A DNA stretch of 56,965 bases from Bacteroidia bacterium (lineage in GTDB: Bacteria; Bacteroidota; Bacteroidia; UKL13-3). The position numbers and the translations under genes are program-made. Positions 7,916 through 29,809 of the stretch are shown here, piece after piece. Positions within the stretch are counted from its first letter, which is position 1, and each line of letters starts with the position of its first letter. The notes below the pieces were generated by a model. That model searched no databases and was not told the DNA's origin. It was given only the letters and a program-made list of their open reading frames with translations. Location of the stretch: positions 1 through 56,965 of the forward strand of contig JAKLJI010000013.1 of NCBI GenBank assembly GCA_023151275.1, given 5' to 3'.

Positions 7916-9454
7916 CTACAAAGGAATATTGCCATGCTTTTTCCTTGGCAGGCGTACAGCTTTGTTTTCAAGCATTTTAAAGGCTTTGATTAATTTACTG
8001 CGCGTTTCTTCAGGCAGAATAACTTCATCAATAAATCCACGCTCAGCCGCTCGGTAAGGATTGGCAAACAAGTCGCCATATTCTTTTTCTTTGGCAGCAA
8101 GCGCAGCGGCTTTATCCTCTGCTGAATCAATTTCTTTTTTGAAAATAATTTCAGCGGCACCTTTTGCGCCCATTACGGCAATTTCAGCAGTTGGCCAAGC
8201 AAAGTTCATATCGGCACCGATGTGTTTGGAATTCATCACATCGTATGCTCCACCATATGCTTTGCGGGTAATAACAGTAACACGAGGAACAGTAGCTTCA
8301 CAAAATGCATACAACAATTTTGCGCCATTTGTAATGATGGCATTCCATTCTTGGTCGGTACCAGGCAAGAAACCAGGTACATCTTCAAACACGAGCAAAG
8401 GAATATTGAAAGAATCGCAAAAACGAACGAAGCGAGCTGCTTTTTTGGACGAATTGATATCCAAAACTCCAGCAAGGAATGCAGGTTGGTTGGCAACAAT
8501 TCCAATGGAACGACCCGCTAGCCTCGCAAAACCTACAACAATATTTTCTGCATAATTTTTATGGACCTCGAAGAAGCTATCTTCATCGGCCACTTGTTCA
8601 ATTACTTCGCGGATATCGTAAGGTTGATTTGGATTTTCGGGAACCAAATTGGCAAGCGCAGAACGCTCTTCTTCGCCTCCATTGTAAGGCAAGGAAGGAG
8701 CCTGTTCTTCGCAATTCTGGGGAATATAACTGAGAAGGCTTTTCAGTTGGCGAATACATTCAACCTCATTAGCGGCGGTAAAATGAGCCACACCACTTTT
8801 AGCAGAATGCACCGAAGCACCACCCAAATCTTCAGAGCTTACCTCTTCATGGGTAACGGTTTTTACTACATTGGGACCGGTAACAAACATATAGCTTGTG
8901 TTTTCTACCATTAGAATATAATCGGTAATTGCAGGGCTATACACGGCACCACCTGCACAAGGACCCATAATAGCAGATAGTTGCGGAATTACTCCGGAAG
9001 CAAGTGTATTACGGTAAAAGATATCCGCATAACCACCTAAGGAAACTACACCCTCTTGAATACGCGCACCACCTGAATCGTTTAAGCCAATTACCGGCGC
9101 GCCATTCTTCATGGCAAGGTCCATTATTTTGCAAATTTTCTCGGCATGTGTCTCTGAAAGCGAACCGCCAAAAATGGTGAAGTCTTGCGAAAACACGTAA
9201 ACCAAACGGCCATTTACTGTTCCATATCCGGTAACCACACCATCCCCTAAAAACTGCTGGTTTTCCATTCCAAAATCTTTGGAGCGGTGCTGAACAAATG
9301 CGCCGATTTCTTCAAATGAACCTTCATCCAAAAGAAAATGAATACGTTCTCTGGCGGTTAATTTTCCTTTTTTATGTTGTGAATCGATGCGGGCCTTGCC
9401 TCCCCCTTCCAACGCTTTATCCCGCGTTTGGAGTAGTAATTCGCGTTTGTCCAT
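7916..9454 (-). CDS. Acyl-CoA carboxylase beta (carboxyltransferase) subunit, propionyl-CoA carboxylase type
   Basis: A 512-residue carboxyltransferase of the PccB/MmdA family. It moves CO2 between biotin and propionyl-CoA or a similar acyl-CoA. Family hallmarks are present: [18 protein letters not shown] near residue 35, [11 protein letters not shown] and the oxyanion-hole stretch [12 protein letters not shown] in the N-terminal half, then [15 protein letters not shown] and [10 protein letters not shown] in the C-terminal half. Length is typical. No biotin carboxylase or biotin carrier gene is next to it, so the partner subunits must lie elsewhere. Propionyl-CoA carboxylase and methylmalonyl-CoA decarboxylase subunits cannot be told apart from this sequence. 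Confidence 0.92.
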
Positions 9455-9473
9455 GAATCAAAAAAAATTTCGG

Positions 9474-9481
9474 CTAAGATA
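9474..9481 (-). promoter_or_regulatory. Possible -7 element of the acyl-CoA carboxylase gene
   Basis: On the minus strand TATCTTAG lies 20 nt before the start codon, close to the Bacteroidota -7 consensus TAnnTTTG. The same octamer occurs 22 nt before the SNF2 gene (13840-13847). No convincing -33 TTG is present. Confidence 0.3.
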
Positions 9482-9549
9482 CACGGATTACTTGTACCTA
9501 AAAGTGATTTTCCTTCCCCATCAAAAGAACTTTGCACAATAGGTATAGT

Positions 9550-10257
9550 TTAGGCCGATCCTTGATAAAGCGCAATGGTTTTTCGTCCGACCAGCGGCGA
9601 AACAGGTGGATTGCTTAAACCCTGAAAAATAGCACCTGCCGGGATGTCAAGCCAGTGAAGCAATTCGAGCACTTGTTGCAAATGACTTGTGAGATAATCA
9701 TAAGAGATTTGTTCATGCTGCCTCGAAAAACAAATTGGCTCATGATGGGCAATGCGGTTACGCAGGGAATTGATAAGGGTTAATTGTTGAAACAGGACGG
9801 TATGGTTTGTTCCTTTAGGTCTATTTGGAAAAATAGTATGAAGGCTGCTGCCCATGGCTTGAAACTCCCGAGAGGCAAATTGGTAACGCCAAAATCCAAA
9901 ACTCAAATTTGCCAGTAAATTGTTGTGGGAATACCTTTTTCCCAAGCTTGCCATGCATGAACGAATGGTTTGCTGCGACTTGCGGGTTGCGTCTTGATCA
10001 AACGGTCCGCCTTTTTGGGCTGCGAATGCCAACCAATCGCTTTCACCATACAACTCCAAAAACTTTTGCCGGTAATGGTGGTCAATTTTATTTCGCAATA
10101 CCACTTCAAACAAACATAAACGGGCATAAACAGCCTGAGAACTGCGAATATTTAGACGGTAATAAAAAAGGGCTTTTCGTTTATCACCACCAGCAGCCAT
10201 CAGGTATTTTTCTAATCTTGTGCTAGAGAGCAATGTTTCAAACTCGTCGTAAGTCAT
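9550..10257 (-). CDS. Abi_2-family abortive-infection protein with HEPN-like motifs
   Basis: A 235-residue protein of the Abi_2/AbiD-AbiF family. Two RNxxxH-type motifs are visible: R55-N56...H60 in EVVLRNKIDHHY and R166-N167...H171 in LRNRIAHHEP. In HEPN RNases this motif is catalytic, so an RNA-cleaving phage-defence role is plausible. The order FYYRLNIRSSQAVYARLCLFE, then LANLSFGFWRYQF, then the second motif matches the family. The gene is alone on its strand, without an obvious antitoxin or restriction partner, and its upstream side holds a possible small plus-strand transcription unit. The activity is inferred. Confidence 0.8.
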   Translation of the reverse strand: MTYDEFETLLSSTRLEKYLMAAGGDKRKALFYYRLNIRSSQAVYARLCLFEVVLRNKIDHHYRQKFLELYGESDWLAFAAQKGGPFDQDATRKSQQTIRSCMASLGKRYSHNNLLANLSFGFWRYQFASREFQAMGSSLHTIFPNRPKGTNHTVLFQQLTLINSLRNRIAHHEPICFSRQHEQISYDYLTSHLQQVLELLHWLDIPAGAIFQGLSNPPVSPLVGRKTIALYQGSA

Positions 10258-10276
10258 GATTTTTTTTTAGTTTTTG

Positions 10277-10307
10277 CTTGCAAATATTAAACTAAGACTT
10301 ACCTTTG
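10277..10307 (+). promoter_or_regulatory. Bacteroidota-type promoter facing away from the Abi gene
   Basis: CTTG at 10277-10280, a 19-nt spacer, and TACCTTTG at 10300-10307, a full match to TAnnTTTG with the usual spacing. Transcription would start near 10313, directly before a hairpin with a T-run, and no plus-strand gene follows. Confidence 0.45.
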
Positions 10308-10315
10308 TGATGTAC

Positions 10316-10352
10316 TCCCGGCTGCCGCTGTCGAAAGATATGCTTCCGGGTT
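10316..10352 (+). terminator. CCCGG/CCGGG hairpin followed by a T-rich tract; possible tiny RNA
   Basis: CCCGG at 10317-10321 pairs with CCGGG at 10346-10350, and a T-rich tract (TTTTTGTTTTTT) follows. The spacing to the promoter at 10277-10307 would give a transcript of about 45-50 nt made up almost entirely of the terminator. It may be a minimal sRNA or simply a terminator. Confidence 0.4.
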
Positions 10353-10686
10353 TTTGTTTTTTATAGCTCTAAGCTATCGTTATTCCTAGCTTTCATTAGC
10401 TTTTGAAATCTTAAACAGTCAGATCAACTCTTTCAAAATTTAGGGAATTCCTTAACCCTACTTTTCATTACAATTTTGGCTATTGAGGTATTCCTTAAAC
10501 AGGAATTTCTAGTTGGAAAGTTTACCTACTTTTTAATTCCATATACGGGAGACTACACAAATTTGTGCATTTCTCGGCATACAATAAATTACCTGATACA
10601 AGCCGATTCTTCGCTCCAATTTTATCCCGGTAAAGTTTGCTAGTTCTTTTGAAAAGACTGAATTGAATTGTTGAGAATCTCTATGC
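10353..10686. other. Intergenic A+T-rich stretch with no visible gene
   Basis: This is the rest of the roughly 430-bp gap between the Abi gene and the SNF2 gene. It holds a small hairpin ATAGCT-CTA-AGCTAT (10363-10377) and otherwise nothing I can support. Confidence 0.5.
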
Positions 10687-13600
10687 CTATTCCAAAAGCT
10701 GCATTATTTCTTCAACATCGATGTGTTTGAATACGGCTTCATCGGTTTCAATAAGGCTATTGGCCAATTCTTTTTTCTTTTGTTGCAATTGAAGAATTTT
10801 CTCTTCAACAGTATCTTTACTAATAAACTTATAAATAAATACCGGTTTATCCTGACCAATACGATGTGCTCGGTCAATGGCCTGTCTTTCTACCGCAGGA
10901 TTCCACCAAGGGTCAATCAGAAACACATAATCAGCCTTGGTTAAATTGAGTCCAAAACCACCCGCTTTCAATGAAATCAAAAAGAAGGAATAATCTCCAT
11001 TCTGAAACTTGGAAACCATTTTTTGGCGATCTTCCGAATTCATGGAGCCATCGAGGTAGCAATAAGATATTTTCTGTTCATCAAACCATTTCCTGTAAAT
11101 GGTGAGTTGTGAAACAAATTGCGAAAACATAAGCACCTTATGTCCTTCCGCAATGGCTGTTTCTGCCATGTAAGTTACCTCGTTGAATTTACCACATTCA
11201 CCTGTAAAATCGGGGTTAACCAACAAAGGGTGGTTGGCAATTTGCCTCAATTTGGTAAGGCCTTGCAACAAGGTAAACTGAGACTTATTTAAACCCATTT
11301 CACGTATCACCTGAAGAATTTCGTTTCGGTAATGCGATTTTACCTTTTCGTAAGCTTCCTTCTGTTCTTCGCTCATATCGCAGTAAACCAACTGCTCCAT
11401 TTTCTCCGGCAAATCTTTTGCTACCTGGTCCTTGGTTCTTCTCAGAATAAAGGGTTTGATAATTGCCTTCAATTGCTGCATTTTGTAAGGATCTTTCAAC
11501 TTTTCTATGGGTTGAACAAAGCGCTCATTGAAGGTATTCAAACTTCCCAACAATCCGGGATTAATAAAACTCAGTTGCGACCAAAGTTCTTGAACACTGT
11601 TCTCAATTGGGGTTCCGGTAAGCACCAGTTTATTGGATGCTTTCAACATCTTCACCGCTTTTGAGCTTTGTGAATTGGGATTTTTGATAGCCTGACTTTC
11701 GTCCAGAATCAAGTAATTAAACCTGAATTCTTTGAGTATATCTACATCTACACGTACAGTTCCATAGGTAGAAATTACCAAATCGAAATTGGTGAATTGT
11801 CGCGTATTTTTTGACCTGCCAATGCCGGTATAAACAAGTACACGTAAACTGGGGGTAAAACGAATGGCTTCCTGGTACCAATTGTAAACCAAGGAATTGG
11901 GAACCACAATCAAAGAACAACGAATAAAGGTTTGGTCTTGAACCCGTTTTTGGTTAGTAGGTTTCAACTCGCGAGAAATGCCCTGACTTCTCACAAAGAG
12001 TTCCCGATTATCTACCTTTTCCTGAACCTGAATAGGTGCTTGGTCAAATAAATTCATTTGAACCGGTTCGCCTTTGGCAGGTTTGCGATTGTTTTCTTCC
12101 CAAAGTGGTGGTTCAAAAGGAACTTCTCCTTTGTTTTCTTCAAAGAGCTCTTTCTCTTTTTGAATAAGGGAGAGGGTTTGAATGGTTTTCCCTAAACCCA
12201 TATCATCGGCTAGACAACCGCCAAATTTGTTTTCTTTTAAAAAGTAAAACCAATCAAAACCTGCTTTTTGGTAAGGTCGAAGTTCACCTTTAAAATTCGC
12301 AGGCAAATCCATTTCGCGAACCTGACCATAGTCTCTTAATTTGAGCAGTTTCTCGCTAAGCTTTAGGTATTTTGAATTGCTGTTTGCTATTTCTTCAAGC
12401 AATCCCACATGGTGCTTTTCAAGTTTTATCTCTTCTTCACCCTCACTAAACTCAAGGATTCCGCTCAAATTGCCAAACCATTCTTCGGGAATTACAGCAA
12501 TCATTCCATTGGGCAATAAAAACTCCCGCTTGCCCTTCATGATGTACTCTCTCAAGGCCAGGAATGAAAAGGTGTATTCACCAAATTTCACAATGGCAGT
12601 TACATCAAACCAATCTCTTCGCTCTTTTACTTCAATTTTTATTTCACGCGGCCCAATAAAATATCGACTTGCTTCTGAAGCCTGTGAAACCTCAATCCCG
12701 GCTTGCTCCAGTTCTGCATGATGTTCATTCAACCAATCAAGAAACACATATTTGTTTACCGATTCTGAACCAAGAAGATTGTCTGTTTTTTTCTGAGGTT
12801 TAAAATCCGGAAGATGAAAGAAGGCCTTGGCAGAATGTCCCAATCCAATTTGTTCAAGTATTACTTTCTTTTTCTCTTCTTCGGCTTGATTGCGATGAAT
12901 ACGCGTAAAATAATAGCGTCCATCTTGCTTGGCTAGCTTTGACAAAACCTGGGCATCGGAGCCGTATTCAAACTCAATCTCGTTGTATTTAAAGCTTAAT
13001 TTTAACGCAATTTCATCCTCATAAAAGTGAACCATTTGCAGGTAAGCTTTTCCATCCGGATGAAAATTATTGATACCAAAGCAATCTGATTTTACATCGT
13101 ATTTATCTACCAACTGGGTAACAAACTTCTGCAAGTAAGTTTCCTCGGCATTGCGCGGTATTTGAATATACCGTTTGTTTAAAAAGGGTTGAAGCTTTTT
13201 GCCATCAATCTTCTTATCGAAATCAATGAGCTTATTTTGTACCAATAACCAGGCCGGATTTAAACATACCACCTGAGCACCTTTGTACATGAACTCTATT
13301 TTCTGACCTTGGTATTTTATCGTTGGGTAATAGCGTATGCCTTCGGGATTTTCTTTGAAATGAAACCACACATTCCCGGGTTCTGTAGCTACTTCAATTT
13401 TGACGGAAGTAGGATTGTTGTCGTTCCCTGTTTTGTAAATATTTCCGCCACGTAATCGCTGCAAAACCTTATTAATTCGTTCCTGAACAAAAGGTTTTAT
13501 GCGGTCTTCCAACAAGGGTTGAGGACAATACTTGCCAAAAAATTCGGTCGTACGTAATTTCTTTTTGGTTTCAGTATTGAAACGCTTGAATAGGTAATTG

Positions 13601-20057: not shown

Positions 20058-21356
20058 TCAATTGGCAAGTTTTACTACTTTCTTAACTGTTGTCTGATTT
20101 CCTTTTGTCAACCTAACAAACCAGGTTCCGGGATTAAGGTCTTTTGTTTGAATTTGGTTACCCTTTCCAGAAGCTACAGGCTCAGCTTGCAAGCTATAAA
20201 GCTCCCAAGAAATGGGTTCACTTGTTTCTAATTCAATCCAATCTGTAAAGGGGTTGGGATATAGATTAACTTTGCTGTCCATTACTTCAGAAACGCTGCT
20301 GGTTGGCAATGCCTTTTTAAGGTAAGTCCAAATTTGATTGGCCAATAAAAATGGCACTAAAGCCTGATCTTCCGGATTATTTCCCATTCTTACTATCACC
20401 AAATTTTGAGAGGGAACCACGAATAAAAATTGTCCGTTCTTTCCCATGGCGGCATACATATCTGCCGGGGCATCCGGACAAAGAAATCCGGGAATATTCA
20501 CCTGCAAGCCGGGCACCATATACGAGGACTTTCCATTCAACCACCACAAATAGCCATAAGCAGGATTCAATTCTTGGGATGAATTAACCAGCCTATTATA
20601 CCAATTGGTATCGGTTAATACTGGTGTATTTTCCCATTTCCCTTTATTCAGCATCAACAAACCAAAACGAGCCATAGCTCTGGGTGTGGAATAGTAAACC
20701 GGATTGTAATTGCCAGGCGCTGTAAAATAAAATCCATCCATTCCTGTTTTTGATTTGAGGCTTTGCTGCATAAAAACATTTATGTTCTTACCAACGCCCT
20801 TTTCAATAACCGGCTCAAGCAAAGAATAAGGAGCATTGTGATAAGCCCAGCGCGTGCCCGGCTCTGCTGCGTATATCAAACAAGCAGGCAATGTGCAATC
20901 CGGGTCAGGCACCTTGTCATTTAATCCAGTGCTCATACTCAATTGGTGTCGAACTTTTATTTTCTGCTCTGCACTATCGGGCAAAGAAGTAAAGCCCTTT
21001 CCTAGATAGAAAGAGCTTGATGAATCGGGATGAACAAAACCACTCTGAACGGCTAAGCCCATAACAAATGAACTTAAGGATTTACCCGCCGAGGCCCAAT
21101 ACCACATACTGTCCTTTGTAAAGGAGCCATAATACTTCTCCCAAACAAGTTTACCGTCTTTCAGAATCAGGAAAGCTTTTGACTGTGCGGCCTCAACAAA
21201 ACTATCTGTTCGTTGCAGTTCAAGTGTATTCCATCCCAATTGTTCAGGAGAAATGCTTTCCCAATTATTGCCAGTCAATGGCGGAAAATAAATGGTTTGG
21301 CCATTTGCCTTATTTAAAAACAGAAATAGTAATACCAGGTAAACGAATGTTCTCAT
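20058..21356 (-). CDS. Secreted beta-lactamase-fold serine hydrolase with T9SS sorting domain
   Basis: A 432-residue secreted hydrolase. A signal peptide is followed by a class C beta-lactamase/DD-peptidase fold, with SAGK at 89-92 (nucleophile Ser89, Lys92) and the YxN motif Y172-H-N174 in RWAYHNAPY. The last 70 residues form a type IX secretion C-terminal domain: NLYPNPF near residue 360, WELYSLQ, then LNPGTWFVRL and KKVVKL at the end. It is therefore exported by the gliding/T9SS system and attached or released at the surface. Substrate is unknown. It is divergent from the PqqD/ATP-grasp operon, with a perfect inverted repeat between them. Confidence 0.9.
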   Translation of the reverse strand: MRTFVYLVLLFLFLNKANGQTIYFPPLTGNNWESISPEQLGWNTLELQRTDSFVEAAQSKAFLILKDGKLVWEKYYGSFTKDSMWYWASAGKSLSSFVMGLAVQSGFVHPDSSSSFYLGKGFTSLPDSAEQKIKVRHQLSMSTGLNDKVPDPDCTLPACLIYAAEPGTRWAYHNAPYSLLEPVIEKGVGKNINVFMQQSLKSKTGMDGFYFTAPGNYNPVYYSTPRAMARFGLLMLNKGKWENTPVLTDTNWYNRLVNSSQELNPAYGYLWWLNGKSSYMVPGLQVNIPGFLCPDAPADMYAAMGKNGQFLFVVPSQNLVIVRMGNNPEDQALVPFLLANQIWTYLKKALPTSSVSEVMDSKVNLYPNPFTDWIELETSEPISWELYSLQAEPVASGKGNQIQTKDLNPGTWFVRLTKGNQTTVKKVVKLAN

Positions 21357-21526: not shown

Positions 21527-21769
21527 ATGAAAATTAAAAAGAATATCGCAATCAGTGAGTCCGGATTTATCTTCAATCCGACTAGTGGAGATTCCTTTTC
21601 CACCAACCCCATTGGATTTGAAATTATCAATCTGCTTCGGGAAGAAAAAAGCAAGGATGAAATCAGAACCGAAATCTTGAATAGGTATCAAATTGATGAA
21701 AGCACATTTGAAAAGGATTATTATGATTTCACCCAGCTATTGATTTCTTCTCAAATTGGCGAGGAATAA
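21527..21769 (+). CDS. PqqD-like protein (RiPP recognition-element fold)
   Basis: An 80-residue protein. The start is ATG 21527 (MKIKKNIAISESGFIF), because the 39 upstream in-frame codons have no family pattern. It follows the PqqD order: two short strands, a hairpin (NPTSGDSFSTNPIGFEI), helix INLLREEKSKDEIRTEIL, then helix DYYDFTQLLISSQIG. PqqD domains bind the leader of a ribosomal peptide and present it to modifying enzymes. The ATP-grasp gene starts 10 nt downstream, followed by a PLP decarboxylase whose N-terminus has a leader-like YxxP...G motif. I infer this protein recognises that motif or an unlinked peptide. No separate precursor gene is visible. Confidence 0.78.
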   Translation: MKIKKNIAISESGFIFNPTSGDSFSTNPIGFEIINLLREEKSKDEIRTEILNRYQIDESTFEKDYYDFTQLLISSQIGEE

Positions 21770-21779
21770 TTCCCGGATT

Positions 21780-22832
21780 ATGGAAACAAAAACCAAATTA
21801 GTTGTTGCCGTCTCGGGGTTAAACAATATTGATAGTCCGGGACCTGGCATCCCAGTTATTCGAGCTCTAAAAGAAAGCACTGAATTCGATATCCGAATCA
21901 TTGGTCTTTCTTACGAGGCGCTGGAACCGGGATTGTATATGCATGACCTGGTTGATAAGTCCTACCAGGTTCCGTTTCCTTCAGCTGGAACAGAAGCCCT
22001 GATGGAGCGCTTATCCTATATTCATCAAGTTGAAAACATCCAGGTAATCATTCCAAATTTTGATGCAGAACTTGGAAACTTCATGAATCTTGAAACGCGA
22101 ATTTTGAATGAAATGGGCATTCGTATGTTCCTCCCTACTCAGGAGCAATTTGACGAACGTCACAAGGCCAATTTGTTTGAGTTTGGGAAAAAACATGGCG
22201 TAAAAGTTCCTTTCTCAAAAATGATGTTTAATACATCTGAAATCCCAAGTCTTCAAAATGAATTCTCTTATCCCATGGTGGTTAAAGGAAGATTCTATGA
22301 AGCTTACATTGCTTACAATCCGGAACAAGTTGCCAGCTATTTCAATAAACTGGTTGCCAAATGGGGTCTTCCGATTATCATTCAGGAATATGTATTTGGA
22401 AGTGAAGTAAATGTAACAGCCATTGGTGATGGAAATGGTACTGCAATTGGTGCGGTTCCCATGCGAAAATTGTTTATTACCGACAAAGGAAAGGCTTGGG
22501 CCGGTATTTCATTGGATGATGAGGAACTCGTAGAAATTGCCAACAAGGTTATTGCTTCCTCCAAATGGAGAGGAGGCATGGAGCTAGAATTCATCAAAAC
22601 TTCAGAAAACGAGTATTACCTACTTGAAATCAATCCCAGATTTCCGGCTTGGGTTTACCTCGCGAAAGGCTGTGGGCAAAACCACCCCGAAGCTTTGGTA
22701 AAAATGGCTCTTGGAATGGAGGTTCAACCATTCCCAAGTTACGAAATAGGAAAAATGTTTGTCAGGTATTCCTACGACATGGTTATTGATTTAAAAGAAT
22801 TTGAACAAATTTCAACATTAGGAGAATTATAA
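21780..22832 (+). CDS. ATP-grasp ligase
   Basis: A 350-residue cytoplasmic enzyme. ATG 21780 (METKTKLVVAVSGLN) is preferred to the in-frame codon 8 residues earlier. Order: an N-terminal Rossmann-like pre-ATP-grasp domain (SGLNNIDSPGPGIPVIRAL, similar to CarB), then the ATP-grasp core with the ATP-binding strand YPMVVKG near 160-170, IIIQEYVFGSEVNVTAIGD, and the metal-binding end LLEINPRFPAW. ATP-grasp enzymes form amide bonds through an acyl-phosphate. Placed between a PqqD-like protein and an amino-acid decarboxylase, it could ligate an amino acid to a carrier or peptide. The acceptor is unknown. Confidence 0.88.
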   Translation: METKTKLVVAVSGLNNIDSPGPGIPVIRALKESTEFDIRIIGLSYEALEPGLYMHDLVDKSYQVPFPSAGTEALMERLSYIHQVENIQVIIPNFDAELGNFMNLETRILNEMGIRMFLPTQEQFDERHKANLFEFGKKHGVKVPFSKMMFNTSEIPSLQNEFSYPMVVKGRFYEAYIAYNPEQVASYFNKLVAKWGLPIIIQEYVFGSEVNVTAIGDGNGTAIGAVPMRKLFITDKGKAWAGISLDDEELVEIANKVIASSKWRGGMELEFIKTSENEYYLLEINPRFPAWVYLAKGCGQNHPEALVKMALGMEVQPFPSYEIGKMFVRYSYDMVIDLKEFEQISTLGEL

Positions 22833-22843
22833 AGCATTCATAC

Positions 22844-24202
22844 ATGGAAAAGTTAAGATACGAACGTCCGGTAATTAAAAAATTGAATTCCGGCTCAATG
22901 AATAAATTCGGAACTCGCACCGAATACACCCCGGTTACTCATATTGATGGTGCTTCTGTGAAAAGCCTCATCGAAGAATTTGGGTCTCCCTTGTTTGCAA
23001 TATCAGAACGCACCATTCGGCAAACTTATAAAGATTGCTTAAGGGCATTCAATAACCGTTACCCAAGGGTTCAAATGGCATGGTCATACAAAACAAATTA
23101 CATCAATGCAGTTTGCAATGTCTTTCATCAGGAAGGCTCTTGGGCTGAAGTTGTATCCGGTTTTGAATACCACAAAGCCTTGAAGAATGGCGTACCAGGC
23201 AATAAAATTATCTTCAATGGTCCGGATAAAACCGACGAGGATTTAATTGCAGCGATGACCAACAATTCGCTTATTCATATCGACCATTTGGATGAATTGT
23301 ACCGCTTGATTGAACTTACTCGCGAACACAACAAAAGACCACGAGTTGCTATTCGTGTAAACATGGATACCGGTGTTTATCCGATGTGGGACCGCTTTGG
23401 ATTCAATTATGAAAATGGTCAAGCTTGGGACGCTATCAACAAAATCATCCTGAATGACCAAATGGATTTGGTTGGATTGCATTGCCATATTGGAACCTTC
23501 ATGCTATCTGCAAATGCGTATGCCATTGCGGCCACAAAACTTGCCGATTTGGCTCACCATATCAATCTTAAGTTCAACAAAAAAATTACCTATATCGACT
23601 TAGGAGGAGGATTTGCTTCAAAGAACAATCTCAAAGGCTCGTATTTGCCAGGAAACATTGGCAACCCCAGCTTTGATGATTATGCAGAAGCCATTTGCAG
23701 CGCCTTGTTGAATTCTGAATTTTCAAAACAAGAACTGCCTTTGTTGATTCTTGAAACCGGAAGAGCTTTAATAGATGAGGCTGGCTACTTGTGCGGAACA
23801 GTACTTGCCAATAAACGGCTAAGCGATGGAAGAAGAGCTACCATCATGGATTTTGGCGTAAATATTTTGTTTACTTCATTCTGGTACGACCATAAAATTT
23901 CTCCGGCACAGGATTTCAGCCATTACACCGAAGATGGCGTAATTTATGGTCCATTGTGCATGAACATTGATGTGGTAAGAGAAAGCGTAACTTTACCACC
24001 TATGAAAAAAGGAGACAATGTGGTGGTGCATACCGTAGGTGCTTACAACATGACCCAATGGATGCAGTTTATTGCCATGCGACCAAATGTAGTAATGATT
24101 GACCTTCAAGGAAAACCTCACTTGATTCGAAACAAGGAAAATCTGGAATACATTCTCGAACGCGAGGAAATGCCGGGTTATCTTGCGGATTTTAATCTAT
24201 GA
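22844..24202 (+). CDS. Type III PLP decarboxylase (DAPDC-like) with leader-like N-terminus
   Basis: A 452-residue enzyme of the alanine-racemase-fold decarboxylases. Catalytic features are intact: PLP Lys83 in WSYKTN, LHCHIG, the phosphate loop LGGGFA, ETGRALIDEAG, the catalytic Cys in GPLCMNID, and GAYNMTQW near the C-terminus. It decarboxylates an amino acid or an aminoacyl group; the substrate is not predictable. Odd feature: residues 4-23 (LRYERPVIKKLNSGSMNKFG) precede the enzyme fold and look like a RiPP leader (Y6xxP9, I11, L14, G17). It starts 11 nt after the ATP-grasp gene and overlaps the next gene by 4 nt. lysA itself is a possible misreading, but the context is not lysine synthesis. 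Confidence 0.88.
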   Translation: MEKLRYERPVIKKLNSGSMNKFGTRTEYTPVTHIDGASVKSLIEEFGSPLFAISERTIRQTYKDCLRAFNNRYPRVQMAWSYKTNYINAVCNVFHQEGSWAEVVSGFEYHKALKNGVPGNKIIFNGPDKTDEDLIAAMTNNSLIHIDHLDELYRLIELTREHNKRPRVAIRVNMDTGVYPMWDRFGFNYENGQAWDAINKIILNDQMDLVGLHCHIGTFMLSANAYAIAATKLADLAHHINLKFNKKITYIDLGGGFASKNNLKGSYLPGNIGNPSFDDYAEAICSALLNSEFSKQELPLLILETGRALIDEAGYLCGTVLANKRLSDGRRATIMDFGVNILFTSFWYDHKISPAQDFSHYTEDGVIYGPLCMNIDVVRESVTLPPMKKGDNVVVHTVGAYNMTQWMQFIAMRPNVVMIDLQGKPHLIRNKENLEYILEREEMPGYLADFNL

Positions 24203-26397
24203 TTCAACTTCCTGAGTTCATAAAAATTCCTGCAAAGGGACTCGCAAATAGCTATTCGCAGTTGTTTCTTTCCAACAATCAGTTGGCAGGAATCTTAATT
24301 GCCTTAGCTTCCTTTGTTGACCCCATTGCAGGAATATGTGGCCTTGCCATGGCATTTATTACAAATGTCATGGCTTGGTTATTTCATTTGCCCAACTTGA
24401 AAATTGAAAATGGTAGCCTGGCGTTTAACAGCTTGCTTACCGGACTTTTCCTGGGCCATAGCTACAACCTAAGCGAATACTTGGCTTTAATTTTATTGGC
24501 TGGAAGTTTTTTGAGTCTCATTCTAACAGTGAACACAGAGGCCATTTTAGCCAAGCATAATCTTCCGTATTTAAGCGTTCCATTCCTTCTAAGCGTCTGG
24601 CTTTTAAAGCTCTCAACAGACAATATCAGTAATCTCGATCCCAATTCTACCCAGATTTTTGTTTTCAATCATGTGCTTCGAATTAGCGGAGAGGGAGGAT
24701 TGTTTACCTATCAGTTTTTAGAAAATCTTCCTCTTCCCATTTGGGTAAGTTCCTACTTAAAATCACTTGGTGCTGTGCTTTTTCAATACAGTACCCTTTC
24801 CGGTTTGGTAATAGCTTTGGCCTTGATTATACATTCTCGCATTGCATTTAGTTTATCGCTGATTGGATTTATTACAGGCTACGCATTTTACCAAATGATG
24901 GGTGCAGACATGAACGACCTAACCTTTGGCTTTATAGGTTTTAACTTTATTTTGACGGCTCTTGCGCTTGGAGGATTTTTCCTAATTCCCAGCGCATCAA
25001 GTTACTTTCTTGTCATTGTTTTAACCCCTGCGATTGCATTAATTGGAATTGCATCTGAAAGCGTACTTGCAAAATTTGGATTACCACTGCTGTCTTTGCC
25101 ATTCAATGCGGGAGTTATTTTATTCTTATACTTTTTGTATTTCAGAACCAAAAGCAAACATCTCTTACTAACACCGGTCCAACTGGTTTCACCAGAAAAA
25201 AACTTATACCGTTACCTCAATCAAAAGGGCAGATTCGGAAATGAACAAGCTATAAAATTGAGTCTGCCAATCGTAGGAACCTGGCGCATTTCGCAAGGTC
25301 ATGCCGGGAAAATTACCCATTTAGACGATTGGCAATATGCCTGGGATTTTGATTTAACCGATGACGAAAACAGGACCTATCGTCTTCCGGGTTTCTCTCC
25401 CGAGGACTATTTCTGCTACGGCCTTCCTGTGGTTGCTCCGGCACTTGGTCAAGTTGTGAAAGTGGTAGATGGCATTCACGACAATGAAATCAATAAAGTG
25501 AACCTTGGCCAAAATTGGGGGAACACTATTGTTATTCAACACAGCCCTACTTTGTTCAGCAAATTAAGCCACCTCAAATCGGGTAGCATAAGGGTAGCTG
25601 AAGGAGAATGGGTTGCTAAAGGACAAACCCTGGCTTTGGTTGGAAATAGTGGTCGCTCCCCCGAACCTCATCTTCATTTTCAATTGCAAGCAACTCCCTA
25701 TATTGGTTCAAAAACACTCAACATTCCCTTAAGCAATTTTATGGTTAAAGTTGATAAGGGCTTTCAATTTGTTACCCAAGGCATTCCAGAAGAAAATGCG
25801 CTTGTATGCAATCCAATTTCGAATCAAACCCTTGCCGAAGCCTTGAATTTCCTCCCAGGAAAGAAATTAGTTTGGAACAAAAATGGAGCAAAATCGAAAG
25901 GACTTGAGGTTTGGGAAGTCTTTACAGATGCCTACAATCAAACCTATTTCCACGACGCCAAGAACAATGCTACACTCTATTTCCAGAATAAAAACGGATT
26001 ATTTGAATCCAGAACATTTTACGGAAATAAAAATACGCTTCTCTTTCAATTTCATTTGTGCAGTCAACAAATACTTCAATCCTGGTATCCTGATTTGGAA
26101 TTGAAAAACGAAGTTGAAATCAGCAGTTTATTCAATCCAACTGAACTTTTTCTTCAAGATTGGGTGGCCCCCTTCTTTAGGTTCTTAAAAACCGAGTACC
26201 GTATCAACTATGCGTTTAACGACAACGATATTACCCAAAGTAAGATCATTTTAAAAGGCGAATTGCGTTCAACTCGATTGGGCATTTTCCATTCTTCAAG
26301 CCAGTTTGAACTTGAATTCTTCAATAAGCAATTGGTAGCCTTCCGATTTGAAAGCAAACGAGAAAAACTGGAGGCGACATGCTCGGAAAACGCTTAA
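24199..26397 (+). CDS. Urea-transporter-like channel fused to M23 peptidase-like domain
   Basis: A 732-residue fusion. Residues 1-315 form two membrane halves, each with the urea-transporter pattern: DPIAGICGLAMA and GSLAFNSLLTGLFLG in the first, SRIAFSLSLIGFITGYAF and DLTFGFIGFNFILTALALGG in the second. Residues 355-530 are an M23 (LytM) peptidase-like domain with VAPALGQVV, WGNTIVIQH, SHLKSG (H458) and PEPHLHF (H491, H493). The first zinc position, normally His four residues before Asp383, is Gln379 here; the nearest His is H374. The last 200 residues are unrecognised. ATG overlaps the decarboxylase stop (ATGA). It may carry a small amine or amide product and act at the cell wall. Confidence 0.82.
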   Translation: MIQLPEFIKIPAKGLANSYSQLFLSNNQLAGILIALASFVDPIAGICGLAMAFITNVMAWLFHLPNLKIENGSLAFNSLLTGLFLGHSYNLSEYLALILLAGSFLSLILTVNTEAILAKHNLPYLSVPFLLSVWLLKLSTDNISNLDPNSTQIFVFNHVLRISGEGGLFTYQFLENLPLPIWVSSYLKSLGAVLFQYSTLSGLVIALALIIHSRIAFSLSLIGFITGYAFYQMMGADMNDLTFGFIGFNFILTALALGGFFLIPSASSYFLVIVLTPAIALIGIASESVLAKFGLPLLSLPFNAGVILFLYFLYFRTKSKHLLLTPVQLVSPEKNLYRYLNQKGRFGNEQAIKLSLPIVGTWRISQGHAGKITHLDDWQYAWDFDLTDDENRTYRLPGFSPEDYFCYGLPVVAPALGQVVKVVDGIHDNEINKVNLGQNWGNTIVIQHSPTLFSKLSHLKSGSIRVAEGEWVAKGQTLALVGNSGRSPEPHLHFQLQATPYIGSKTLNIPLSNFMVKVDKGFQFVTQGIPEENALVCNPISNQTLAEALNFLPGKKLVWNKNGAKSKGLEVWEVFTDAYNQTYFHDAKNNATLYFQNKNGLFESRTFYGNKNTLLFQFHLCSQQILQSWYPDLELKNEVEISSLFNPTELFLQDWVAPFFRFLKTEYRINYAFNDNDITQSKIILKGELRSTRLGIFHSSSQFELEFFNKQLVAFRFESKREKLEATCSENA

Positions 26398-27518
26398 TTC
26401 AGCTTGTACTTTTCTTCCTTCTCTCATTTGAATTGCAAGCTCAAGCAATTGAAGATTCAAGCTATCAGTATTACCTGAATGCAAAACACGACGAACAAAT
26501 TGAACTAGGCAAAAGTGCGTTGAAGCAAGGTATAGATTATTATTACCTGCGCTACCGACTTGGAGTTGCCTACATGGGAAAAAGAAACTTCAGGAAAGCT
26601 ATTCAACAGTTCGACAAAGCCTTAAAAATGAACTCGGGCTCATACGAAGCAAAATCAATGATTCGCGATTGTGCATTGGCAGCAGGAATTGAAAAACTTG
26701 AATTGTATTCAAGACCCTTTACCGGTGCAAAAACCGGTTTTATGCAACAGGTTTATCTGGAGTCAGGAATGAAACAAAGCAGCTTCACCGATACAATTGG
26801 GAATCCTGTATTTGGTCAATTGGGCTTGCAGGTTGCGCTAGGCCCTTTTGTTTCATTGTTTGCCGGATATGCCCTTGCCTATCAAAACAACTTAACCCTC
26901 AATTTCAGGCAACATCAGCTGTATTCGCACTTAACTATCAAGCCTGGCATTGCTTGGCAAGTCAGTGCCTTTGGCTCTGGAATGGTAGCCAATGTTGCAC
27001 TGAACCAAAGTGATTCAGTTTTCAATGAATTTTCCGGATTGGCAGGAGTTAGCATTCAAAAATCTAGTGGCAACTGGGAATGGAGTTTAGGTGCCGGCAT
27101 TGGAAACCTAAATAAACTAAGACAAATTCAAGGGGGTCTTACCCTTACCTGGTATCCACTTGGCAATGATTTATTCAACCTCAGATGCATGAACCATTTG
27201 CAGGTTCAAAACGCAAGCCTTACTCCCATTATTTGTCCGTCAACCACAGTTAAACTTTTTAAAAACTGTTGGCTAAAAGCGGAATACTTACGTGCCAATA
27301 GCACAAATGTATGGGAGCAAGATGGCTATATTTTAAACAACAATCCCGACCGGACAATTGATAAATCAACATTACTTCTTACCTACAAGTACGCCTTTTA
27401 CCATGATATTTATTTGGTATCTCAACTAGAAAAAAAAGAAGCGTTGATTGAAGAAACAACAACAAGACCATACACCTTCAGCAACCTCATTGTTGGATAC
27501 ACTTACCGAATTCATTAA
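26379..27518 (+). CDS. Secreted TPR plus outer-membrane beta-barrel protein
   Basis: A 379-residue envelope protein. A signal peptide (LIQLVLFFLLSFELQAQA) precedes a short TPR region (about 35-100, with YRLGVAYMGKRNFRKAIQQFDKAL). From about 115 on, alternating strands with aromatic girdles (LESGMKQSSF, LGLQVALGPFVSLFAGYAL, LLLTYKYAFYHDIYLVSQLE, LIVGYTYRIH at the very C-terminus) indicate an outer-membrane barrel. The start lies inside the previous gene (19-nt overlap), so it is part of the same operon. It could place the operon's product, or a partner, at the outer membrane. Confidence 0.75.
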   Translation: MLGKRLIQLVLFFLLSFELQAQAIEDSSYQYYLNAKHDEQIELGKSALKQGIDYYYLRYRLGVAYMGKRNFRKAIQQFDKALKMNSGSYEAKSMIRDCALAAGIEKLELYSRPFTGAKTGFMQQVYLESGMKQSSFTDTIGNPVFGQLGLQVALGPFVSLFAGYALAYQNNLTLNFRQHQLYSHLTIKPGIAWQVSAFGSGMVANVALNQSDSVFNEFSGLAGVSIQKSSGNWEWSLGAGIGNLNKLRQIQGGLTLTWYPLGNDLFNLRCMNHLQVQNASLTPIICPSTTVKLFKNCWLKAEYLRANSTNVWEQDGYILNNNPDRTIDKSTLLLTYKYAFYHDIYLVSQLEKKEALIEETTTRPYTFSNLIVGYTYRIH

Positions 27519-27531
27519 TTAGAAAAACCAT

Positions 27532-28143
27532 ATGAAAAAATCAATTTTAATGCTGGCCCTACTTGGCCTATTTGCTGCAACTGGATTTGCCCAAACCAAC
27601 AGTCTTGAAACTGCATTCAAAAACTCCTATGCCCATGAAAAAAATGGAGACTACCCAAAAGCAATTAAAGAAATTGTAGCCCATCAAAACGAAAACAGCT
27701 ATGAGATAAACCTTCGTCTTGGCTGGTTGTATTACCTCAACGCTCAGCATGTTGAATCCATAAAACATTACAAAAAAGCAGTTGACTTAATGCCTTACGC
27801 TATTGAACCAAAATTTGGATTGGTTTATCCTCATTCAGCTTTGGGAAATTGGGATGAAGTATTGAACTTGTATCATGCAATCCTGAAAATTGACCCCTCT
27901 AATACCCTAATCAATTACAGAATTGGCTTGATTTATTACAACCGGAAAGAATATCCAAAAGCAATTCCATACCTGCAGAAGGTTGTCAATTTGTATCCCT
28001 TTTCTTACGATGGCTTAAACCTATTAGCATGGGCCCAATATTTAGCCGGAAACACACGTGAGGCTAAACTGCTTTTCAACCGCTGCTTGCTTACCAATCC
28101 GGGTGATGAATCCTCGTTAGGAGGTTTAAAATTGATAAAGTAA
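27532..28143 (+). CDS. Secreted tetratricopeptide-repeat protein
   Basis: A 203-residue periplasmic TPR protein. A clear signal peptide (ILMLALLGLFAATGFAQ) is followed by four or five TPR units between about 30 and 195, for example EINLRLGWLYYLNAQHVESI, INYRIGLIYYNRKEYPKAI and LNLLAWAQYLAGNTREAKLL. TPRs are scaffolds, so it probably links other envelope proteins of this operon. It starts 13 nt after the TPR-barrel gene and overlaps the GSCFA gene by one base (TAATG). The paired TPR genes may be duplicates with different C-termini. Confidence 0.82.
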   Translation: MKKSILMLALLGLFAATGFAQTNSLETAFKNSYAHEKNGDYPKAIKEIVAHQNENSYEINLRLGWLYYLNAQHVESIKHYKKAVDLMPYAIEPKFGLVYPHSALGNWDEVLNLYHAILKIDPSNTLINYRIGLIYYNRKEYPKAIPYLQKVVNLYPFSYDGLNLLAWAQYLAGNTREAKLLFNRCLLTNPGDESSLGGLKLIK

Positions 28144-29096
28144 TGCAATTCAAATCGGAATTTGTAATCCCCTTTTCTCAGTATCCGGTGAGGAAAGGGG
28201 ATCAATTTTTTCTGGCAGGTTCTTGCTTTGCGGAGCACCTATTTAAGGGATTAAAAAACTGGCGATTCCCTGCCAGAGGGCTATCCAATGGCATTCTATT
28301 TAATCCCTTGAGTATAGCAAATGCTTTCAGAGATTTACTTGAGCAAAATCCAATAGAAGCTGATGACTTGATTGAGGAGGATGGAATTTTCCTATCCCGG
28401 TTCCATCACGGGGCTGTTTACGATACCCAAAAGGAAAGACTTCTCGAAAGGACAAAATGCCTTCAACAAGAGGACCTCGCGTTTTTGAAATCCGCAAAAT
28501 TTCTAATTGTATCGTTTGGTACAGCAAAGGCTTGGAAGCATGTGCATAGAAACTACATCGTAGCCAATTGCCACAAAGAAGCGGCCTCCAACTTTAGCAG
28601 TTACCGTTTATCTGTTGCTGATATTGTTGCAGCCTGGAAAAGCGTTTTGGACAAATTATTCAGCATAAATCCAGGTATTCAAGTGGTGTTTACGGTAAGT
28701 CCCGTAAAATACCTGAAAGAGGGGTTTCACGAAAACAACCTAAGTAAATCTACGCTGTTGTTGGCAACCGAACAATTGTGTGCCAGCTATCCTTCTTGCA
28801 ACTACTTTCCATCCTATGAAATTGTATTGGATGAATTAAGGGATTATCGATTTTTTGAAACTGATTTTGCCCATCCAACCCAGCAAGCAATCAACTACGT
28901 TTTGCACAAATTCAGAGAGTCCTGGTTTGAACCTGAAACAAGTGAAATGATACAACAGCTTGAACAGCTTCAGAAAAGGGAAAGTCACCGCTTTTTGCAT
29001 CCAGAGGCCCATTCAGCGGTGAAGTTTATTGAAGACACGCAGAAGATGAGAAGAGAATTGGAGTTAAAGTATCCTTTTCAGGATTGGACTTATTGA
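28143..29096 (+). CDS. GSCFA-domain SGNH-hydrolase-like protein
   Basis: A 317-residue protein of the GSCFA family. The naming motif AGSCFAE (about 25-31) holds the likely nucleophile Ser, and ILFNPLSIANAF, FGTAKAW, FTVSPVKYL and the terminal DYRFFETDFAHPTQQAI (Asp...His dyad) follow in family order. Such proteins are thought to be SGNH esterases or acyltransferases; substrates are unknown. No signal peptide is apparent, so it may act in the cytoplasm. It closes the operon that begins at 21527 and its end overlaps the convergent DsbA-like gene by 7 nt. Confidence 0.88.
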   Translation: MQFKSEFVIPFSQYPVRKGDQFFLAGSCFAEHLFKGLKNWRFPARGLSNGILFNPLSIANAFRDLLEQNPIEADDLIEEDGIFLSRFHHGAVYDTQKERLLERTKCLQQEDLAFLKSAKFLIVSFGTAKAWKHVHRNYIVANCHKEAASNFSSYRLSVADIVAAWKSVLDKLFSINPGIQVVFTVSPVKYLKEGFHENNLSKSTLLLATEQLCASYPSCNYFPSYEIVLDELRDYRFFETDFAHPTQQAINYVLHKFRESWFEPETSEMIQQLEQLQKRESHRFLHPEAHSAVKFIEDTQKMRRELELKYPFQDWTY

Positions 29097-29809
29097 ATGG
29101 TCTTTACCTTTTCAAGCAATTCAAACAATTCATTTTCAGGAACAAATCCATTAGAAACCAAATAGTATTTTCCTTGAATTAATGCCAAGACAGCAGGGTA
29201 TCCAGAAACGCCCAACTTTTTGGCTGATTCAAATACCTCAAAGGCCTTTTTCTTGAAATCTTCTGAAGCTAAACCGGCATAGAAAACGGATTCAGACAAA
29301 TCCATTTTTTGCAAAAGCTCTTTGTACACAGTTGAATCAGAAAGATTCTTCCCACCAATAAAATGCAATTTCTGCATTTCGGATGCAAAAGCAATAGCTT
29401 TTGAACTATCCATGCTCTTTACTACTTCAAGTGCAATGGAGGGCAATACCGATGAGGTATATAAGCTTTTATCTTTGAGTTGATCCAGATAGGGCTGTCC
29501 AAATTTCACACCCGAATAGCTTTCAACTCTGCCGTAAGCAGATAAAATATAGTCGGCAAAATCACCAATTGGTCCTTCCCGCTCACCTACTACCATGCCA
29601 CCTGAGATGATTTCAAAATCAAGAGAATCTCCAAACTGCTGCTCAGCATTTCGGATTACACCACTAAACCCAAAGCACCAACCGCACATGGGATCAAACA
29701 CATATATTATTTTTGGCTTCGACATAACTTGAAAAGTTGAAAGACTTATTACCAATAGAAACAAGAACCGGATGATTACGTTTTTCTTCATCTTACTTCC
29801 GCTATTCAT
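29090..29809 (-). CDS. DsbA-family thiol-disulfide protein (FrnE-like)
   Basis: A 239-residue exported protein. MKKNVIIRFLFLLVISL is a signal sequence starting at the second Met (29791); the first ATG at 29809 adds six residues. The thioredoxin-fold active site is CGWC in DPMCGWCFGF (about 42-45), with the cis-Pro loop GVSGYPAVLAL (about 204). The helical insertion contains FADYILSAYG and LPSIALEVVKSM. It is related to the DsbA/FrnE-like protein at 3888-4904, but is shorter and lacks the lipobox. It lies at the end of a minus-strand run with a small membrane protein and lipA. Confidence 0.85.
   Translation of the reverse strand: MNSGSKMKKNVIIRFLFLLVISLSTFQVMSKPKIIYVFDPMCGWCFGFSGVIRNAEQQFGDSLDFEIISGGMVVGEREGPIGDFADYILSAYGRVESYSGVKFGQPYLDQLKDKSLYTSSVLPSIALEVVKSMDSSKAIAFASEMQKLHFIGGKNLSDSTVYKELLQKMDLSESVFYAGLASEDFKKKAFEVFESAKKLGVSGYPAVLALIQGKYYLVSNGFVPENELFELLEKVKTIQ

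Follow-up and report, generated by a model that had tools for sequence, protein, structure and literature searches.

What does a PqqD-like protein recognise in an operon in which it is encoded next to an ATP-grasp ligase and an amino-acid decarboxylase? The question is raised by a window of 56,965 nucleotides, the whole stretch of DNA that was analysed, which is one contig (JAKLJI010000013.1, our C4) of a 3.9-Mb, 98.3% complete genome of a Bacteroidia bacterium (lineage UKL13-3; GCA_023151275.1). Seven open reading frames (ORFs) lie head to tail on its + strand at 21527-29096 and begin with the genes for PqqD, the ligase and a pyridoxal phosphate (PLP)-dependent decarboxylase, hereafter DEC. 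An earlier sequence-only reading had placed PqqD in the carrier or recognition position of a system that builds or installs a decarboxylated amino acid. Our analysis locates the recognition signal on DEC itself: its N-terminus carries a tag like the leaders of lasso systems, which produce ribosomally synthesized and post-translationally modified peptides (RiPPs), and PqqD, a putative RiPP recognition element (RRE), very probably binds this leader directly.

The decarboxylase begins with a lasso-type leader

We compared the operon across the best 80 of 91 loci from a genome-collection scan with the ATP-grasp protein, together with 20 fetched regions, and collected 164 DEC sequences including that of the window, 163 of which have a complete N-terminus. 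Residues 1-23 of the window DEC read M-E-K-L-R-Y-E-R-P-V-I-K-K-L-N-S-G-S-M-N-K-F-G. All 163 complete N-termini contain the motif [Y/F]xxPx[I/L/V] and a lysine exactly 15 residues past the aromatic residue, which is Tyr in 124 of them, the window included, and Phe in 39. Four sequences that read KHG at the junction (L176, L186, L188, L190) are included in the tag and column counts; the DEC frame of locus L053 (2479-3858), which is broken near the N-terminus, before the tag, is left out of the tag counts. Among 102 unique tags, the proline and Lys(+15) are invariant, and Gly(+17) and Gly(+11) are kept in 101 and 97, respectively.

Most discrete lasso RREs bind leaders with the consensus [Y/W]xxPx[L/V/I/A/F/Y] (PMC13381572). 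The Phe of 39 DEC tags falls outside this strict form. As a control, we searched for the strict motif in the first 20 residues of the proteins encoded at the loci, and found it in 98/108 DEC sequences, 1/106 PqqD sequences, none of the sequences of the other four operon genes (52-110 per gene) and 2 of 613 unassigned neighbour ORFs. The register agrees as well. Lasso leaders have Tyr at −17, Pro at −14, Leu at −12 and a penultimate residue, usually Thr, at −2, and in the lasso system described there the core starts at Gly +1 (PMC10368454); Y6, P9, I11, K21 and G23 of DEC fall exactly on these positions.

In the AlphaFold2 model of DEC (mean predicted local distance difference test score, pLDDT, 88.7) residues 1-30 score about 50 and are modelled as disordered; packing within the modelled monomer therefore leaves the invariance of the tag unexplained. 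The structural relatives of DEC mostly align from residue 24-38 onwards, with the rows for D-ornithine/D-lysine decarboxylases starting at residue 12-18. By motif, spacing and register, we consider it shown that DEC starts with a lasso-type RiPP leader, its first 22 residues, which the model predicts to be flexible.

Probable recognition of the leader by PqqD

The window PqqD scores 34.3 bits against its Pfam profile (cut-off 23.4). A profile built from 59 PqqD proteins had TbiB1 (5v1u) as its best match in the PDB (E 5e-14), followed by TfuB1 (6jx3, 1.4e-8), PbaB1 (9x90, 2e-5) and, weakly, LppB (9x8z, 0.0058). PqqD residues N27, D64, F68 and L72 occupy the expected leader-binding positions, and in the profile alignment the first three correspond to Asn33, Asp70 and Phe74 of LppB. 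In the LppB complex, Asp70 hydrogen-bonds the leader tyrosine and Asn33 fixes a kink at the proline; D70A weakens the complex and N33A almost abolishes it (PMC13381572). N27 is found in 162/162 PqqD sequences and F68 in 150/164.

Position 64 varies with the aromatic residue of the tag. It is Asp in 121 and Asn in 3 of the 124 sequences with a Tyr tag, and Tyr in 35, His in 3 and Phe in 1 of the 39 with a Phe tag. Of 877 alignment columns (79 from PqqD, 348 from the ATP-grasp protein and 450 from DEC, with the tag position itself left out) it is the only one that fully separates the two groups. LppB Asp70 had been met by name before the columns were scanned and its PqqD equivalent was mapped only after the scan; the covariation carries weight because the separating column is the known Tyr contact site. 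Taken as a whole, the comparisons point to PqqD as a discrete RRE of the lasso type, whose contacts would be those of leader Tyr with Asp64, of the proline kink with Asn27 and of the aliphatic residue with a second pocket.

Lasso systems (B1 protein and leader) and the LppB/LppA pair of linear polyphosphorylated peptides share with this operon a PqqD-type RRE and a YxxPx[L/I/V] leader; B1 proteins and LppB also share the Tyr-binding Asp and the Pro-kink Asn, and the lasso register extends the likeness to position −2 and Gly +1. Here, however, the leader is on a 452-residue decarboxylase instead of a precursor peptide, and an ATP-grasp ligase is present. Searches of the window operon proteins with Pfam and NCBIfam gave no match to a lasso macrolactam cyclase or B2 leader peptidase.

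Could PqqD itself hold the amino acid, as BtrI does in the butirosin system, where BtrJ is the ligase and BtrK the decarboxylase? The gene logic is alike: a ligase comes first and then a PLP decarboxylase of fold III, and the amino acid would be processed while it is held. BtrK is, moreover, in the fold list of DEC (Z 42.2). We nevertheless regard this as extremely improbable. No acyl carrier protein is seen in the operon, where PqqD and the leader take its place, and none of the Lys, Cys, Asp, Glu, Thr and Tyr residues of PqqD is conserved in more than 90% of the sequences. Ser10 (154/164) is replaced by Asn or Arg in 7 sequences, and Ser23, in a triplet GDS like that of acyl carrier proteins, by Thr in 25/162. 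Since no attachment residue is fully conserved, a role of PqqD as covalent carrier is unlikely; it keeps the leader-binding residues instead. Of the two positions that the sequence-only reading had offered for PqqD, recognition has held up and that of a carrier has not.

A further alternative is that the tail serves the folding, dimerisation or regulation of DEC, that its likeness to leaders is convergent and that PqqD guides an unseen peptide. It would fit the D-ornithine/D-lysine decarboxylases, fold-III enzymes that align into the tail, and a covariation that rests on two independent events. We judge it very improbable: the motif with lasso spacing is in every complete DEC, and the separating column is the Tyr-binding site. 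Moreover, a search of 10 genomes with the tag profile matched DEC only in 10/10 (next match E 0.19) and found no second tag. A six-frame scan of loci L001-L111 with one restricted motif near a Met found no separate RiPP precursor. It gave 30 matches outside the assigned DEC frames: 2 were DEC in copies of the window, 5 lay inside the channel-M23 or ATP-grasp genes, 3 (L071, L082, L104) were one same out-of-frame stretch within the DEC gene and the remaining 20 had no shared sequence by eye. Shadow frames within DEC were the only shared leader-like ORFs.

Possible chemistry at the leader junction

The ATP-grasp protein matches PF15632 and PF02655 above cut-off and is modelled with a pLDDT of 94.1. 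Its VIA-align Z-scores are 29.5 to 2pn1, 24.9 to PylC (4ffr) and 23.8 to an L-amino acid ligase (3vot). PylC acylates a lysine side chain, and its place among these neighbours hints, suggestively at best, at a Lys acceptor. As 2pn1 is nearest, followed by a tied mixed group, the structural list does not fix the acceptor. Graspetide systems resemble the operon in the proposed logic of a leader-guided ATP-grasp enzyme and differ in that no precursor was found here.

DEC is a PLP fold-III (alanine racemase-fold) decarboxylase with the PLP lysine K83 in 164/164 sequences and the catalytic cysteine C372 in 158/159. Its top structural match is N-citrylornithine decarboxylase (7kh2, Z 47.1), tied with the diaminopimelate decarboxylase of M. 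jannaschii (1twi, 46.2), and the former is also closest by sequence (phmmer E 1.5e-56). FslC/FigC stand at the top of this structural list and share with DEC a Met beside the catalytic Cys and, in the specificity helix, a Thr and a Tyr. In FigC, these Met, Thr and Tyr residues stand where enzymes for free basic amino acids or diaminopimelate have acidic or Arg determinants, and its clade, in a tree without DEC, also holds BtrK and MccE, whose substrates are carrier- or peptide-bound (PMC7857480). Because DEC is closest to FigC and has its Met, Thr and Tyr, its substrate is likely to be a side-chain-modified amino acid; free diaminopimelate, ornithine or arginine is unlikely. This agrees with the earlier comparison to a decarboxylase that acts on a carried amino acid, DEC being closest to an enzyme that uses a side-chain-acylated one and having BtrK in its fold list. 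DEC differs from FslC/FigC in the leader tag, in the lack of an NRPS-independent siderophore (NIS) synthetase in the operon and in Ile375 (159/159), which the alignment places at FigC His357. With 227.9 bits against the FslC model (cut-off 500) it is not a member of that family, and its score against the lysA equivalog is likewise below cut-off (212.2, cut-off 297.9). We rejected DEC as LysA; the genome encodes a separate, true LysA (389.3 bits).

We propose a leader-guided modification module with an enzyme as its client, a reading whose strengths and uncertainties we see as evenly balanced. PqqD would dock DEC by its flexible leader, as lasso RREs do, a step that is well supported; for the chemistry and the product, we infer the following. 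Binding would bring the Lys21-Phe22-Gly23 junction into the catalytic site of the ATP-grasp enzyme, and this partner would join a carboxylate to the side chain of Lys21 or, if the leader is cut, to Gly23. DEC would then decarboxylate the tethered or released product, and a small polar product may pass through the urea-type channel encoded by the next gene, to be handled by periplasmic TPR and outer-membrane barrel proteins. The operon may in this way build or install an amine, as the sequence-only reading had supposed, with the leader and a possible site of attachment both lying on DEC itself, one of the two sites which that reading had named.

The main rival is docking without modification, in which the leader would let PqqD hold DEC and the ATP-grasp enzyme together while a small amide is handed on and the tag stays unmodified. 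All evidence for leader docking fits it equally, it needs no release step, and the nearest relatives of DEC, FslC/FigC, act on a free acylated amino acid. It leaves unexplained, however, why Lys(+15) and Gly(+17) are conserved outside the bound motif in a segment modelled as disordered, and we hold it to be possible but on the unlikely side. A bolder form of our proposal, which we consider rather unlikely, makes DEC at once RRE client, carrier and catalyst: guided by PqqD, the ATP-grasp enzyme would load Lys21 with an amino acid, the leader would act as a swinging arm that brings it to the enzyme's own active site, and the product would leave via the urea-type channel. If true, such a decarboxylase would offer, in ribosomally encoded form, a self-carrying alternative to LysW, BtrI and other carrier proteins.

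The channel protein bears on a third possibility, that of maturation. It matches PF03253 over nearly its full length and shares the LPxx(S/T)xPF boxes of urea transporters, with Ser/Thr kept in each box in 34/36 homologues. It differs from these transporters in having mostly Ser for Thr, in its C-terminal M23 domain and in its occurrence in genomes with the PqqD/ATP-grasp/DEC trio. Residues H374, D383, H458, H491 and H493 of the M23 domain are present in all 36 aligned homologues. The H-x3-D motif in which M23 peptidases usually carry their first metal ligand is missing here, and its place may be taken by the invariant H374. The channel domain has positive residues next to both of its ends and an acidic central loop; as urea transporters are N-in/C-in, this puts the M23 domain probably in the cytoplasm. 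The envelope role that the sequence-only reading had assigned to the domain is therefore weakened to the point of being doubtful, and the domain could act on a cytoplasmic client. In locus L121 (about 8923-11195), the channel-M23 gene is apparently frameshifted between its domains, with no TPR gene found downstream. We discarded the split genes as evidence on topology, their frames overlapping as in a frameshift; the operon there looks decayed or misassembled.

In a maturation scenario, the ATP-grasp enzyme or the M23 domain would modify or cut DEC once at Lys-Phe-Gly, activating it or exposing Gly23, much as lasso B2 peptidases cut leaders; the M23 domain would be the leader peptidase, on the cytoplasmic face. 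The junction does sit where lasso leaders are cut (PMC10368454). The five kept M23 residues and the probable cytoplasmic position also favour this scenario. That position is, however, predicted from charge and from transporter topology, and M23 enzymes are known as peptidoglycan hydrolases. We deem the scenario improbable.

Several observations weigh against the proposal of docking followed by modification. Nothing was identified that would release a tethered product. In the structural list of the ATP-grasp enzyme, biotin carboxylases and glycinamide ribonucleotide (GAR) synthetase stand level with PylC, with 2pn1 higher, and against the pyrrolys_PylC model the enzyme scores 22.4 bits (cut-off 248.3). 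Concerning the leader, the Tyr of LppA at −16 and the Trp of PbaA at −15 are off the DEC register by one to two residues (PMC13381572). Three Tyr-tag sequences carry Asn64. The tag switched at least twice on the tree of ATP-grasp and DEC, in which two long branches (L117, L124) meet, and the covariation is not significant phylogenetically: of two independent tag pairs in quick trees, 1.5 on average changed in the same direction and 0.5 showed no difference. As the loci are also redundant, with some genomes present two or three times, we claim no phylogenetic significance. PF05402 is matched by the operon PqqD alone in the window genome, but 4 of 10 genomes hold a further PF05402 protein outside the operon, so that PqqD is not always the sole RRE. 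Finally, a further ORF lies between the trio genes in five loci (L064, L066, L073, L091, L124).

The conserved unit and its surroundings

All seven ORFs of the run were found as the sequence-only reading had described them, with gaps of at most 13 nt (in order +10, +11, −4, −19, +13 and −1 nt), and its domain calls were borne out by Pfam (Table 1): ATPgrasp_Ter 42.1 bits; Orn_Arg_deC_N 104.8 and Orn_DAP_Arg_deC 44.6 for DEC; UT 180.3 and Peptidase_M23 56.7 for the channel protein; GSCFA 257; and TPRs in the TPR genes. The barrel part of the TPR-barrel protein received no name from NCBIfam or Pfam. Both flanking genes are on the − strand (20058-21356 and 29090-29809); the former, opposite to the operon, encodes a serine beta-lactamase-like hydrolase with a C-terminal sorting domain of the type IX secretion system (T9SS).

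Table 1. Features of the operon in the window
Feature	Position	Strand	Basis
PqqD-like RRE (putative), 80 aa	21527..21769	+	Pfam PF05402; profile against PDB
Codon of PqqD Asp64, equivalent of LppB Asp70 by alignment	21716..21718	+	Alignment; covariation with tag
ATP-grasp ligase, 350 aa	21780..22832	+	Pfam; model; structural neighbours
PLP fold-III decarboxylase (DEC), 452 aa, with N-terminal leader tag	22844..24202	+	Structure; phmmer; catalytic residues
DEC leader tag, residues 1-23 (Y6-x-x-P9-x-I11...K21-F22-G23)	22844..22912	+	Motif conservation; low pLDDT
Codon of DEC Lys21, proposed acceptor, leader/body junction, lasso −2	22904..22906	+	Tag conservation; register of PMC10368454
Urea-transporter-like channel fused to M23 peptidase-like domain, 732 aa	24199..26397	+	Pfam; homologue alignment
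Secreted TPR protein, likely outer-membrane barrel	26379..27518	+	TPR_1 E 4e-6; signal peptide and barrel by eye
Secreted TPR protein	27532..28143	+	Pfam; signal peptide by eye
GSCFA hydrolase-like gene, local neighbour outside the conserved unit	28143..29096	+	Pfam

The conserved unit has six genes, which in the mapped loci follow one another on one strand in the order PqqD, ATP-grasp, DEC, channel-M23, TPR-barrel and TPR. The proposed operon of seven genes is real as a conserved unit but loses its last member: GSCFA lies downstream of the operon only in the near relatives L032 and L034, and its matches in L059 and L060 are upstream and separate. Conservation of the trio as a block elsewhere, the check set beforehand, was confirmed. 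Counting only loci with enough flanking sequence, PqqD accompanies the ATP-grasp gene in 94/95, DEC in 93/93, the channel-M23 gene in 81/81, the second TPR gene in 67/69 and a recognisable TPR-barrel protein in 57/69. At the single locus counted as lacking PqqD (L124), a match was found past a 661-aa ORF. Four loci titled Ignavibacteria or Chlorobi have a separate protein after the TPR gene instead, barrel-like as judged by eye.

In whole-genome searches, the ATP-grasp protein was found in 34/395 genomes of the phylum (E <= 1e-30) and in 10/128, 30/325 and 1/98 genomes of smaller groups (E <= 1e-60). The DEC profile identified the identical 34/395 genomes (E <= 1e-100). With two candidates scored per genome, the channel-M23 profile matched 50/395 (E <= 1e-20): the strong matches are the same 34 genomes and the remaining 16 match one domain only. 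Records that contain the operon are titled Bacteroidetes, Ignavibacteria and Chlorobi. PADLOC gave no anti-phage defence match for the operon, a plasmid search no ATP-grasp match at E 1e-30, and matches to phage families were limited to M23, TPR and one weak ATP-grasp match.

The surroundings vary. The ORF within the trio of L064, L066 and L073 encodes a secreted protein with an apparent C-terminal sorting domain. A cluster of LytTR/two-component ORFs occurs in 25/80 loci and an AraC-type cluster in 11/80 (types assigned by Pfam from one or two ORFs per cluster). A leucine-rich-repeat-like surface protein, so named by eye (11/80 loci), is often upstream of the operon in Paludibacter-titled records, as are LytTR-type regulators (L080, L083, L087, L091, L104 and others). 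Immediately 5' of PqqD, L079, L083 and L094 encode a small protein which we take to be DUF2202-like. In L116/G124, a genome assembled as a single contig, both contig ends match the operon, which is probably a terminal assembly overlap and not a duplication.

We found no open-licence paper in PubMed Central (PMC) on the combination of PqqD, ATP-grasp, decarboxylase and urea-channel-M23. A 2025 survey of RREs lists the ATP-grasp family PF02222 among its neighbourhood markers, and 'decarboxylase' is absent from its main text (PMC12710340). A graspetide paper cites PqqD as an analogy (PMC8939145), and a cell-free assay of RRE-peptide binding used PqqD and TbiB1 (PMC12325987).

RiPP leaders and RREs are known for guiding the modification of small peptides, and such a tag on a full-size enzyme would be an unexpected reuse. 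In this operon a full-size PLP enzyme has that recognition code fixed at its N-terminus, with the register unchanged. The finding lends itself to simple single-residue tests, of Y6/D64 for docking and of K21 for modification. If the binding is true, genome mining that is restricted to short precursors beside RREs would overlook protein clients as a class, and ATP-grasp and decarboxylase enzymes of a family without assignment would gain a testable set of partners.

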